DNA from: an uncultured beta proteobacterium
GTDB lineage: Bacteria; Pseudomonadota; Gammaproteobacteria; Burkholderiales; Burkholderiaceae_B
Direction: 5' to 3'
Assembly: GCA_903821335.1 (NCBI GenBank)
Contig: CAIJKV010000005.1
Coordinates: forward strand, 1-64,000
DNA length: 64,000 nt
Made by a program: the position numbers and the translations under genes. Positions 48,401 through 54,784 of this stretch are shown here, piece by piece (the stretch's first letter is position 1; the number at the start of each line of letters is the position of its first letter). Under the pieces are notes generated by a model that worked only from the letters and a program-made list of their open reading frames with translations, was not told the DNA's origin and did not search any database.

Positions 48401-49342
48401 ATGCGAAAACCGCAAGATGTTCTGACCCCGGAAGCGCTCGGCATGCTGCAGACGATTGCTGAAACGGGGAGTTTTGCCGCGGCGTCCCGCAAACTGGGCC
48501 TGGTGCCCAGCGCCCTGACTTACCGGGTGCGGCAACTCGAGGACGCCCTGGATGTGCTGCTGTTCGACCGTCGTTCGCGTCAGGCAAAACCCACGGCGGC
48601 CGGCCAGGAACTCATGCGCGAGAGCGCCAAACTCCTTGAAGACCTGGATGCCATCGCCAACCGCGTCAAGCGCATTGCGACAGGCTGGGAAGCCCAGTTC
48701 ACCATCGCCGTGGACACCATCATCGCGCGTGCGGCGATCATGGAGTTATGCGCAGCCTTTTTGGCCACAAACCCACCGACACGCCTGCGACTGCGCGACG
48801 AGGCGTTATCGGGAACAATCTCTGCGCTCAACAATGGTCAGGCTGACCTGGCGATCGGAGTTCCCGAGGAAGCCATGATGGTCGGCCGGGCCATCCATCA
48901 TCAGCCTATCGGCGACGTGTCGTTTGTATTTGCCGTCGCGCCGCACCACCCGCTGGCCAGCGCAGACGAGCCCCTCGCGCCGGAACAGACAGCAAAGTAT
49001 CGCGTGATCTCGGTCGCTGACTCCGTGCAGCGCGGCAGCGGCATGACCATCGGCGTGACACGCGGACAGGACGTCATGACCGTTGCCACCATGCAAGAAA
49101 AAATGGACGCGCAGATACGCGGGCTGGGTGGTGGTTTTGTACCCGAGGCCATGGCACTGCCCTACCTGGAAAGTGGTCGTCTGGTCATCAAGACCGTTGC
49201 GCAACCCGAACGCATCACGAGTCTGCGTTACGCCTGGCGGCAAAGCGACACACAACCCGGCCGCGCGTTGCAGTGGTGGCTTGAGCGCCTGGCGCAACCC
49301 ACCACGCGCGAGGCACTGCTCACGCGGCATCGCACGGCCTGA
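48401..49342 (+). CDS. LysR-family transcriptional regulator
   Basis: 313-aa LysR-type regulator. The helix-turn-helix is residues 8-65 (GSFAAASRKLGLVPSALTYR, QLEDALDVLLFDR), with an effector domain from about residue 90 (WEAQFTIAVDTIIARAAIM). Divergent from the pirin/DoxX pair, which it probably controls, and convergent with a small exported-protein gene. The effector is unknown. Confidence 0.93.
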   Translation: MRKPQDVLTPEALGMLQTIAETGSFAAASRKLGLVPSALTYRVRQLEDALDVLLFDRRSRQAKPTAAGQELMRESAKLLEDLDAIANRVKRIATGWEAQFTIAVDTIIARAAIMELCAAFLATNPPTRLRLRDEALSGTISALNNGQADLAIGVPEEAMMVGRAIHHQPIGDVSFVFAVAPHHPLASADEPLAPEQTAKYRVISVADSVQRGSGMTIGVTRGQDVMTVATMQEKMDAQIRGLGGGFVPEAMALPYLESGRLVIKTVAQPERITSLRYAWRQSDTQPGRALQWWLERLAQPTTREALLTRHRTA

Positions 49343-49351
49343 GGATCGTGA

Positions 49352-49798
49352 TTACTTCTCCATTTTGACGGTCACGCCACTGGCACCCAGGTTGAACTGC
49401 AGGCCTTGCTGCGTGCTTTGCAAACGCATGATGACGCCATTCTCGTTCTTGAGCACGGTGCCACCCACGCCGCCACCCAGAGTGATGTTGCCGTCCAGCT
49501 TGGCATAAGTGCCCGGGAATTTAGACATGTCGGCCAAGTCATACACCTCGCCCGACGCGGCTAGTTTGGAGATGCCGATATTGGCACCCAGGCTGATGCC
49601 ACCAATCTTGAACGGATACTTTTTACCCTTGTAGGTCAACTCGCCACCCCCTACGCTGCCGCCCACGATCAGACCAAACTGCGTCTCATTGATGGTCACG
49701 GTTCCGGATGGTTTCTTGGCTTCCTGGGCATACACCGCGCCTGCGGACATCACTGCCAGGCCCAGCACGGCAGCAGTCAGAATTTTGCGTATTTTCAT
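49352..49798 (-). CDS. Exported glycine-rich small protein, function unknown
   Basis: 148-aa protein with a clear Sec signal peptide (KIRKILTAAVLGLAVMSAGAVYAQ). The mature part is beta-rich and glycine-rich: FGLIVGGSVGGGELTYKGKKYPF, here seen as LIVGGSVGGGELTYKG, then SLGANIGISKLAASGEVYDL, GNITLGGGVGGTVLKNENGV and QGLQFNLGASGV. I recognise this as a pattern of uncharacterised exported proteins but cannot assign a family. Probably periplasmic or outer-membrane associated. It converges on the LysR gene with a 9-base gap. Confidence 0.8.
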   Translation of the reverse strand: MKIRKILTAAVLGLAVMSAGAVYAQEAKKPSGTVTINETQFGLIVGGSVGGGELTYKGKKYPFKIGGISLGANIGISKLAASGEVYDLADMSKFPGTYAKLDGNITLGGGVGGTVLKNENGVIMRLQSTQQGLQFNLGASGVTVKMEK

Positions 49799-50014
49799 GA
49801 TGATTCAATTCCTGAAGTTTCGTTCAACACCAACCCCACACCCAAACAGAACATGACCAGAGGGTCAACAAAGCGTGCGTGCAGGACAACGCACTCAGGT
49901 TAACACCCGCCCAGGACACTTGCCGCCCTTCAATCAGTTATAAATCCATATTCAGCTGTGCGTCGACCGAAACCACGCGTCTGACTCTGCACGATCTGTA
50001 GAGACGTATAAAAA

Positions 50015-52150
50015 TTGAATCACCGGAGATTCCATGCACACCGACCTGCGATCGAAAAAAAAGTGCGCAAGCTTGTTGGCCAGCCAGTCATGGTTGACAG
50101 CCACCCTGGGGTCGGCGCGATACTGGGCACCGCCACTGTGATCAAGTCCGTGCCCGACGGCAACACCCTGAGCGTGGCGTCCAATCACCCGATCACTTTC
50201 GCCCCGCGCATTCTGTTCCTGAGCGAAGATCCGGCAATCATTCAGGCACAGCTTGTCGGGACGCAACTGAAGCCAGACGCTGCGGGCAAGTTACGGGACG
50301 ACGTGTCGACTGACGAGATTTCGCCCCTGCCCATCATGGTGCACTTCGATGACCAGCTTGGGCGCTACCCCTATACCGGCCTGAGCGTGGGTGCTCAACT
50401 GCCGGTCGGGCGTGACGCCATCCGCACGGCCGGAATCGAGGTTGTCGTCGCGGGAAAACGCTACGGCAAGGGCAGCTCGCGCGAACACAGCGTGGTCGCC
50501 GAGCAAGCGGCGGGTGTGCGCCTCATCATCGCCGAAAGTTTTGAACGGATCTACCGTCAGAACGCTGACAACCTTGGCCTGTTCACCTCGTCGGACTTCG
50601 GCCTGATTGAGCGAATCAGGCGGGGTGAACCCATTTCGCTTGATGAACTGCTGGTGGGACGCGACGCCGTTGCCGCCGCAATTCTTCGGGTGGGCGGCCT
50701 GCTCCACTACGGCCAGCTGAAGTTGCGTGCGGCGAGCGCCACTGCGGCAGCACCGACGACCAGGCCTCTCACGCTATTTGAAAAAATCGTTGCGCGACAT
50801 CTGCTGTCGAACGAAGACGCGCCGGGTTGGCTGCGCGCCGGCGAAGGTGGTTTTGTGCGTGCTGATTTGCGCTTCATTCATGAGTACTACACCGGCATGG
50901 CGGCGCACGTGCTCGACAAGCACTTTGGCGACACGCTGACCTTGCACGATCCCGCGACCATCCTCTGTTTTGAAGACCACCTGTCGTATGTGCATCGCAG
51001 CCCGGTGCACTTGAAACACGGCCTGGTGGGTGGGGTCAAGGCACTGTCAGTCGCGCACCGCAACTTTGTCCGGCGCCACAATCTGACAGATCACGGCTAC
51101 CTGCAACAGCTTGATGCCGGGGACCCGAACAACACAGGATCGCAAGGCATCTCGCACGCGCTGATGACGGAAAATTATGCGCTCCCTGGCCAACTGATCG
51201 CGGGAACGGATTCACATACGCCGCACAGTGGCGCCGTGGGTTGCGTCGCGTTTGGCGTGGGCACCACTGACATGGCCAACGCCTTCGTGACCGGGGCGGT
51301 GCGCTTTACCATGCCCGAGACGTTGCGCATCAACGTGCGCGGCCCCCTGTCGGCCGGCATCACGGCCAAAGACGTCGTGCTGCACTTGCTGGCCGACCGG
51401 GCGATTCGTGCCGGCGCAGGCGTGGGCAAGGTGTTCGAATTCGGGGGCTCCGCCGTGCGGGCAATGTCCGTCGATGAACGCGCAACGCTCACCAACATGA
51501 CTGCCGAGCTGGGTGGTTTCACCGGGCTGGTCGAACCCGACGAACAGAGTGTGCTTTTCATCAAGGAACGACGGGGTATCGATGTCGTCCTCGAACCCTG
51601 GATGAAGAGTGACGCGGGTGCGACGTATGCCAAGACAATCGAGATCGATGGAACCGTGCTCACACCCATGGTGGCGCGCCCCGGCGACCCCGGCAATGGC
51701 GTTGCACTGTCGTCACTCACGGATCGGGTCGCCATCGACATCGCCTATGGGGGTTCCTGCACGGCAGGCAAACGGGAAGACTTCGATCAGTACTACGCGG
51801 TGCTGTCCTGGGCTGCAGCGCGTGGGCTGAAAACGGCTCCCGGCGTCAGCCTCTATCTGCAATACGGCACGCAAGGCGTGCGCGACTACTGTGTGGAAAA
51901 AGGCTATCTCGCCGCTTTCGAAGCAGTGGGTGCGGAAATCCTCCAGCCCGCCTGTGGCGCGTGTGCCAACTGCGGCCCGGGGTCGTCTTCCGAATCCGGT
52001 CAGGTCACTGTCAGCGCGATCAATCGCAATTTTCCGGGCAGGTCGGGTCCGGGAGATGTCTGGCTGGCCAGCCCGGCCACCGTTGCGGCGAGCGCCATCG
52101 CCGGCAAACTGGTTTCGTTTGCAGAGCTTGTGGCAAGCACCATGCCGTGA
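50015..52150 (+). CDS. Aconitase-family hydro-lyase with N-terminal swivel domain and Bug-derived 5' end
   Basis: The open frame (711 codons) has three parts. Codons about 17-65 (VRKLVGQPVMVDSHPG, VPDGNTLSVASNHPIT) are the middle of a Bug receptor, without signal peptide or first lobe. From about codon 66 (RILFLSEDPAIIQAQ) an aconitase-superfamily swivel domain follows, with YGKGSSREHSVVAEQAAG. From about 240 is the 4Fe-4S catalytic domain, with GTDSHTPHSGAVG and the cluster cysteines in GGSCTAGKR and CGACANCGPG. The swivel-first order resembles AcnB rather than LeuCD. The start is unclear: no in-frame codon has a good ribosome-binding site, while the ATG at 50034 with CGGAG is in another frame joined through A AAA AAG. 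Likely dehydrates or isomerises a hydroxy-tricarboxylate. Confidence 0.85.
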   Translation: MNHRRFHAHRPAIEKKVRKLVGQPVMVDSHPGVGAILGTATVIKSVPDGNTLSVASNHPITFAPRILFLSEDPAIIQAQLVGTQLKPDAAGKLRDDVSTDEISPLPIMVHFDDQLGRYPYTGLSVGAQLPVGRDAIRTAGIEVVVAGKRYGKGSSREHSVVAEQAAGVRLIIAESFERIYRQNADNLGLFTSSDFGLIERIRRGEPISLDELLVGRDAVAAAILRVGGLLHYGQLKLRAASATAAAPTTRPLTLFEKIVARHLLSNEDAPGWLRAGEGGFVRADLRFIHEYYTGMAAHVLDKHFGDTLTLHDPATILCFEDHLSYVHRSPVHLKHGLVGGVKALSVAHRNFVRRHNLTDHGYLQQLDAGDPNNTGSQGISHALMTENYALPGQLIAGTDSHTPHSGAVGCVAFGVGTTDMANAFVTGAVRFTMPETLRINVRGPLSAGITAKDVVLHLLADRAIRAGAGVGKVFEFGGSAVRAMSVDERATLTNMTAELGGFTGLVEPDEQSVLFIKERRGIDVVLEPWMKSDAGATYAKTIEIDGTVLTPMVARPGDPGNGVALSSLTDRVAIDIAYGGSCTAGKREDFDQYYAVLSWAAARGLKTAPGVSLYLQYGTQGVRDYCVEKGYLAAFEAVGAEILQPACGACANCGPGSSSESGQVTVSAINRNFPGRSGPGDVWLASPATVAASAIAGKLVSFAELVASTMP
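50034..50141 (+). other. Short leader frame ending in TGA that contains an in-frame A AAA AAG slippery heptamer
   Basis: ATG at 50034 preceded by CCGGAGATTCC opens a 35-codon frame ending at TGA 50139-50141. Codons 8-10 are AAA AAA AAG within an eight-A run (50055-50062), so the heptamer A AAA AAG at 50057-50063 is read in the phase known for -1 frameshifting in E. coli dnaX. A -1 slip there joins this start exactly to the aconitase frame. Whether slippage happens is not shown by the sequence. Confidence 0.55.
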
Positions 52151-54301: not shown

Positions 54302-54784
54302 TCAGTCCCTGAAATTATTGAACTGAAGCGGCAATTCGACATCGACGGTTTTCAGCAAAGCAATCGCACCCTGGAGATCGTCGCGCTTCTTGCCGATGAT
54401 GCGCAGTTTTTCACCGGTGATCTGGGTTTCCACTTTCAGTTTTTTTTCTTTGATGGCTGCGATCAGCTTTTTTGAAATCGGCTGTTCAATACCCTGCTTG
54501 ATGGTCACTTTCTGGCGGGCACCACCCAAGTTTTCAAGCGGGTCGGCCACATCCATGCAACGGGTATCGATGCCGCGCGCACTCAGTCTGGCACGCAAGA
54601 TATCAATCATCTGCTTGAGCTGGAACGCGCTCGACGCCACCTGCGTCACCACCAGATCGTCCAGTTCAAACTTGGCCTGCGTCCCTTTGAAATCAAAGCG
54701 CGTGGAAAGCTCGCGATTGGCCTGATCGACCGCATTGGTCAATTCATGTTTATCAACTTCGGAAACAACGTCAAATGAGGGCAT
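54302..54784 (-). CDS. YajQ-family nucleotide-binding protein
   Basis: 160-aa two-domain RNP-like YajQ/XC_3703 protein. MPSFDVVSEVDKHELTNAVD at the start, TRFDFKGTQAKFEL, KVTIKQGIEQPISKKLIAAI and VETQITGEKLRIIGKKRDDLQ are conserved blocks. Members bind cyclic di-GMP or other nucleotides and act as cytoplasmic effectors in virulence or regulation. Full length, own strand, immediately convergent with the old yellow enzyme gene. Confidence 0.95.
   Translation of the reverse strand: MPSFDVVSEVDKHELTNAVDQANRELSTRFDFKGTQAKFELDDLVVTQVASSAFQLKQMIDILRARLSARGIDTRCMDVADPLENLGGARQKVTIKQGIEQPISKKLIAAIKEKKLKVETQITGEKLRIIGKKRDDLQGAIALLKTVDVELPLQFNNFRD

Follow-up and report, generated by a model that had tools for sequence, protein, structure and literature searches.

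The odd start of an aconitase-family gene in a beta proteobacterium as a probable remnant of an adjacent transporter gene

In the stretch of DNA that we analysed (the window, 64,000 nt), the best start for an aconitase-family gene lies in another frame, joined to it by an A AAA AAG heptamer. The sequence comparisons below explain this odd start best as what is left of an adjacent transporter gene, tctC, most of which was lost, and exotic frame-shifting would not be needed. We think it quite likely that gene erosion in a tctC-enzyme pair produced the arrangement. For the whole explanation, in which an eroded tctC was fused to the enzyme and stop-restart coupling at the leader expresses it, our confidence is about even.

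Leader frame, heptamer and candidate starts

The features of the locus, in window positions, are:

48401..49342, + strand: LysR regulator, which adjoins the enzyme gene in relative G028 too
49352..49798, - strand: EipA-like gene between regulator and enzyme (28.2 bits, under the Pfam cut-off of 30.8)
50021..50036, + strand: ribosome-binding site CACCGGAGATTCC and ATG 50034 of a short leader frame (from anti-SD energy)
50034..50141, + strand: 35-codon leader ORF (read from the sequence)
50048..50191, + strand: remnant of tctC (tripartite tricarboxylate transporter receptor) in the enzyme's frame (Pfam PF03401)
50055..50063, + strand: A8 run and G, containing A AAA AAG in the -1 phase
50138..50141, + strand: GTGA, enzyme-frame GTG overlapping the leader TGA at distance -4 (putative start)
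50174..50176, + strand: GTG, the in-frame start closest to the orthologues' start position (SD energy -2.1)
50192..52150, + strand: aconitase/isopropylmalate-isomerase family enzyme body (Pfam PF00694, PF00330; 77-79% identity to orthologues)

A preliminary description of this DNA had reported a leader ATG with a good Shine-Dalgarno (SD) sequence, and we confirmed it at 50034-50036, with CACCGGAGATTCC directly 5'. The leader does run for 35 codons to a TGA at 50139-50141, and its codons 8-10 are AAA AAA AAG as described (A8 at 50055-50062, G at 50063). A -1 slip at A AAA AAG leads, as had been claimed, into the long frame that ends at 52150. The absence of a downstream structure also held, because 50064-50140 folds at z = +0.99 with 171/200 shuffles equal or better; neither side of the heptamer has unusual folding (z +0.99 and +0.33). 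In the 64 kb, AAAAAAG occurs three times on the + strand and four times on the - strand. We estimate, after the fact, about 0.002 in-phase copies of A AAA AAG per given 105-nt leader. The same chance over 57 ORFs gives an estimated 0.1 or so in-phase copies per window, the 57 being a greedy list of the longest ORFs with some antisense shadows included.

A second 8-base run, T8 on the + strand (A8 in the gene), lies at 54440-54447 inside an open yajQ-like gene, so A8 can stand within a coding frame here.

The anti-SD pairing of ATG 50034 is -6.6 kcal/mol, equal to that of 5/7 genus enzyme starts tested. The six in-frame starts that we tested (TTG 50015, GTG 50063, ATG 50090, GTG 50138, GTG 50150 and GTG 50174) have energies of -2.9 to +0.5 kcal/mol. 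This bears out the statement that none of them has a comparable ribosome-binding site (-6.6 against -2.9 or weaker). The values are -1.5 for ATG 50090, -2.4 for GTG 50138, +0.5 for GTG 50150 and -2.1 kcal/mol for GTG 50174. Besides the last of these, GTG 50150 and ATG 50090 are candidate starts. Initiation is compatible with a poor SD, because the orthologue in G028 begins at an ATG with an anti-SD energy of only -0.7. A promoter scan of 49780-50210 and an Rfam search of 49300-50400 returned nothing.

The TctC remnant, the enzyme and tctC-enzyme pairs in relatives

The long frame has three Pfam matches, in the order TctC, Aconitase_C, Aconitase. When the remnant stretch is searched alone, PF03401 matches with 33.8 bits (cut-off 27) at profile positions 6-49 of 274. 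The remnant is about 48 codons long, with a 5' edge that is uncertain by a few codons, and the signal peptide and most of the TctC protein are absent. Compared with the acn-linked TctC of Sphaerotilus (L044), it has 50% identity across 42 aa. Twelve TctC columns are conserved in at least 90% of a set of 35 acn-linked TctC proteins. The remnant matches 8 of the 12 and every one of the 35 matches 11 or 12, a test biased by the fact that the 35 proteins compared also define the columns. The G+C pattern of the remnant in the long frame is coding-like (0.67/0.45/0.81, from only 42 codons, against 0.67/0.48/0.72 for the enzyme). The TctC match starts at about the A run and in the long frame, and therefore the long frame past the run would be the old tctC frame; the codons before the run gave no clear TctC match. 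The preliminary description spoke of a chimera that might depend on recoding. The chimera stands, as a TctC remnant fused to an aconitase-family enzyme by the Pfam matches, and the dependence on recoding is not supported.

The enzyme carries its swivel (small-subunit) domain first and its Fe-S (large-subunit) domain second in one chain. Six Cys are invariant in 9/9 sequences, and the Fe-S ligands presumably lie among them. The enzyme body has no stop. Of the 347 columns that are invariant apart from it, 12 carry a private change, compared with 9/344 in L037, 10/345 in both L044 and L046 and 39/374 in L050; L038 and L040-L042, which are four near-copies, have 0-2. Against L037, L038 and L040-L042, dN is 0.15-0.17 and dS is >2. 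By these comparisons the enzyme body looks intact. A simply decayed gene, which had also been suggested, is thus right for the upstream tctC and wrong for the enzyme body, which shows none. The best solved relatives of the enzyme by sequence are isopropylmalate/citramalate isomerase large subunits.

The enzyme has 11 genus orthologues at 77-79% identity. We read the N-termini of nine of them (leaving out G009 and G027): eight begin M-T-A-[IL]-T-F-A-P, and the one in G028 begins M-H-T-L-N-F-A-P. A partial enzyme copy in G007 begins M-T-A-I-I-F-T-P.

We looked for tctC (E <= 1e-8) around the enzyme gene in 80 related loci, the best 80 named of 308 candidates, some of which end near contig ends. 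It adjoins the enzyme gene on the upstream side in 16 and on the downstream side, at no more than about 220 nt, in 16. Four more distant enzymes of the genus (about 58-59%) have tctC directly downstream. The presence of tctC on either side of the enzyme gene suggests a functional link between uptake and enzyme. Across L013-L017 and L044-L116, it is the immediate upstream neighbour in part of the Burkholderiales and the immediate downstream neighbour in the rest.

None of the 11 close genus orthologues (L002-L012, flanks of up to 1.5 kb) carries the tctC stretch, so the former presence of tctC in the genus rests on the outgroups. For these we used an enzyme tree of 36 hand-chosen rows (the window, 31 of the 80 loci and 4 genus loci) with a midpoint root. 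The window branches off first inside its genus clade (100/100). Seven rows, the nearest to that clade, join in the next starred set (100/99), and 7/7 have tctC upstream. Just outside this 15-row set is L048, without an adjacent tctC (fork 84/93, not starred).

Measured from the tctC stop, an in-frame enzyme start stands at -4 to +16 nt in 15/16 of the upstream pairs, all but L116, where it is at +118. In L080 the sole such start is a GTG at -4. The pairs of Sphaerotilus L044, Leptothrix L052 and Rubrivivax L113 are like the window in enzyme family and gene order, and their tight stop-to-start spacing resembles that at the window's leader. They differ in that the window keeps no more of tctC than a start region and about 48 codons, and that the enzyme there has lost the start it once had. 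In the literature (titles and abstract starts), we found nothing on a TctC-aconitase pair.

Routes to expression

Since the leader stop overlaps an in-frame GTG, there is a simpler route to the enzyme than recoding. Our best guess for enzyme expression is stop-restart coupling, in which ribosomes would end at the leader TGA and restart at GTG 50138, 50150 or 50174. These lie at -4, +8 and +32 from the end of the TGA, and this spacing resembles that of the enzyme gene behind tctC in relatives' operons. Taken together, the window's GTG distances and the spacing in 15/16 pairs support coupling. There are two caveats. The GTGA is nearly automatic, as any TGA after A, G or T gives a start codon there, and the SDs of the three GTGs are weak (-2.4, +0.5 and -2.1 kcal/mol, the best of them for a restart being -2.4). 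In E. coli pairs, according to PMC6728339, SD removal lowered reinitiation by 60-90% in 3/5 and abolished it in one, and the SD contribution went from essential to none across the five. The overlap of the window's leader stop with a start codon of the following frame recalls the ATGA/TGATG type of termination-reinitiation pair described there; in the window, by contrast, the upstream ORF is a 35-codon remnant, the start is GTG and the SD is weak.

The enzyme may instead be begun directly, independently of the leader, at a weak internal start (ATG 50090 or GTG 50138, 50150 or 50174). The G028 orthologue, with its ATG at only -0.7, gives a precedent, and the N-terminus from GTG 50174 would be close to those of the orthologues. 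However, the four starts are weak in SD (-1.5, -2.4, +0.5 and -2.1) and the strong SD is at 50034, and we consider direct initiation unlikely.

If A AAA AAG served for programmed -1 ribosomal frameshifting, the product would be a TctC-remnant/enzyme chimera of about 705 residues. The heptamer is of the X XXY YYZ form, in the zero frame and in the correct phase. PMC4066793 places A_AAA_AAG among the most efficient E. coli motifs given stimulators, and PMC5009743 calls it one of the most shift-prone in E. coli. The title of one reference speaks of 2 to 50 percent frameshifting on some signals. Against this, by eye and with motifs as in PMC4066793, there is no SD 6-17 nt before the second base of the heptamer; the only GGAG nearby is about 30 nt upstream. 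There is also no downstream stem-loop (z +0.99, folding without pseudoknots). PMC4066793 counts 39/64 heptamers as shift-prone without stimulators, at 2.1- to 10-fold over a background of 0.055% in E. coli. The site is not conserved, as 0/11 close orthologous loci of the genus (flanks of up to 1.5 kb) carry the stretch. The window's own genome encodes both tRNA-Lys(CUU) and tRNA-Lys(UUU) (ctt and ttt, G000 contig 34), and the CUU species should pair fully with AAG and lower slippage there. The paper behind this expectation nevertheless counts IS elements with such motifs in 46/83 species having both tRNA-Lys.

The obvious comparison is the E. coli dnaX -1 frameshift (PMC3711429 and PMC5009743), where A_AAA_AAG stands in the same phase as in the window. 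Compared with dnaX as presented there, the window is without SD, hairpin and conservation, has tRNA-Lys(CUU), and would shift near the N-terminus. In the E. coli dnaX setting tRNA-Lys(UUU) alone reads AAG, whereas the window's genome has CUU too. We found no second genome with the remnant-enzyme fusion, and a narrow literature search on A AAA AAG recoding found nothing. With no stimulatory SD, structure or conservation, and with tRNA-Lys(CUU) encoded, the dependence on recoding that was proposed earlier is poorly supported, and we give ribosomal frameshifting only the slimmest chance.

Transcriptional slippage, or a length-variable A8, might bring the two frames together in some mRNAs or cells. 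PMC3711429 names runs over 7 A as sites of slippage, and PMC4256274 describes an A11 run by which the tssM frame is restored at about 20-25%. The A8 is eight bases long, at the lower limit of the eight or more for transcriptional realignment, which weakens the case. Two further points against slippage are that the T8 on the + strand at 54440 sits inside the open yajQ-like gene and that we saw no conservation of the A8 stretch. In Citrobacter tssM (PMC4256274), an A run stands between two frames of one gene as in the window, but it is A11 there and A8 here. We judge slippage or a variable run to be very improbable.

Homopolymers are error-prone in sequencing. If the A run were miscounted in the assembly, the true gene could be one frame from ATG 50034, as a one-base change would join the leader and enzyme frames. 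Set against a miscount, the window's longest ORFs are closely packed and we noticed no clearly broken gene. This we regard as improbable. A more speculative proposal is that the eroded transporter gene acts as a recoding leader, with slippage on the A8, ribosomal or transcriptional, setting the amount of chimera and so switching the enzyme; we think it a long shot.

Origin of the fusion and loss at the locus

Returning to gene erosion in a tctC-enzyme pair, the ancestor would have been an ordinary two-gene unit, tctC for the periplasmic receptor and then the aconitase-family enzyme gene. In the window's lineage tctC would have been mostly deleted, probably by two deletions, leaving its start region and about 48 codons. 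With the second deletion the remnant codons would have come to lie in frame with the enzyme, whose original ATG would have been lost. ATG 50034 is possibly the old tctC start, whose SD and ATG now open the 35-codon leader. The simplest history would start from an ancestral pair; the branch leading to the seven other genus rows would have lost tctC, of which the window retains a scrap.

Alternatively, the tctC piece may have come in by insertion, directly after the start codon that the enzyme originally had. This concerns origin and is compatible with any of the routes to expression. The G028 enzyme start has the same ATGCACACC as the leader, which fits an insertion into the enzyme's 5' end, and the two have 12/13 bases in common (TTC.ATGCACACC). 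This likeness is matched by 6/1000 shuffles for the short stretch and 23/300 for the long stretch. However, the remnant sits exactly at the place of tctC in the tree's nearest outgroups, our own-genome DNA search found no donor at E <= 0.001, and CGGAGA, the best local match common to 4 of the other 6 genus leaders, is at shuffle level. An insertion therefore seems to us rather unlikely.

As for a DNA donor for 49800-50200, the own genome gave only the stretch itself. In 60 relatives, the DNA of 49800-50200 has matches of 71-88% over about 100 nt or less in G034, G002 and G012, and the remnant protein fragment has matches in 2/60 (E <= 1e-9; 49 and 50% identity). A plasmid donor was rejected too: 67 records match, none of the 10 listed is above 53% identity, and one further record is at 60-80%. 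The 10-nt inverted repeat AATTGAATCA (49801-49810 and 50013-50022) stands just 5' of the start of the EipA-like gene and, likewise, of the leader SD, and by our estimate it is near chance.

The neighbours of the enzyme gene allow the locus to be followed in sister species. The order in the window is LysR, EipA-like (reverse), remnant-enzyme, Ada-like, old yellow enzyme-like and YajQ-like. G028 has LysR, enzyme, old yellow enzyme-like and YajQ-like; G017 has LysR, EipA-like, Ada-like and old yellow enzyme-like; and a short G002 contig (3.5 kb) has LysR, EipA-like and Ada-like. The EipA-like gene thus holds the same place in the sister species G002 and G017, and neither has an enzyme match at this locus. 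In G002 (L129, contig 56), a scrap alignable to the enzyme 3' end lies between the EipA-like and Ada-like genes (score 40 against 27 for the best of 200 shuffles). From this scrap, the enzyme gene was probably once present at the G002 locus and has since been lost. We found no such scrap at this place in G017, and the upstream DNA of the window gave no match above shuffles to G002 or G017.

The EipA-like gene is present in 6/61 genomes (own included, E <= 1e-8), with two copies each in G017 and G028. Import of the tctC piece together with the EipA-like gene in a single block was considered and rejected. Other genomes have 7 EipA-like hits, and the check covered six of them (all but the second G017 copy); none of the six has tctC directly beside it. 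A tctC does lie about 6.5 kb from the hit in L128 and 5.3 kb from that in L131.

The window's gene might also be newly silenced and on its way to being lost as in G002 and G017, which may hold alongside the history by erosion. Two facts fit: the sisters are without the enzyme at this locus, and in the window the original start codon of the enzyme is missing. The enzyme body has no excess of unusual changes, which speaks against silencing, though a recent loss would leave no trace yet. We find it doubtful that the gene is silent.

Apart from being a snapshot of gene erosion, the fusion appears otherwise ordinary. The snapshot would be of an operon gene vanishing, with tctC in the outgroups, an in-frame scrap in the window and nothing beside the 11 orthologues. 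The picture of erosion would extend to the enzyme itself, of which only a scrap is left in one sister species. Erosion of this kind can create an apparent slippery site together with a good start in another frame, which is a warning for scans that look for recoding.
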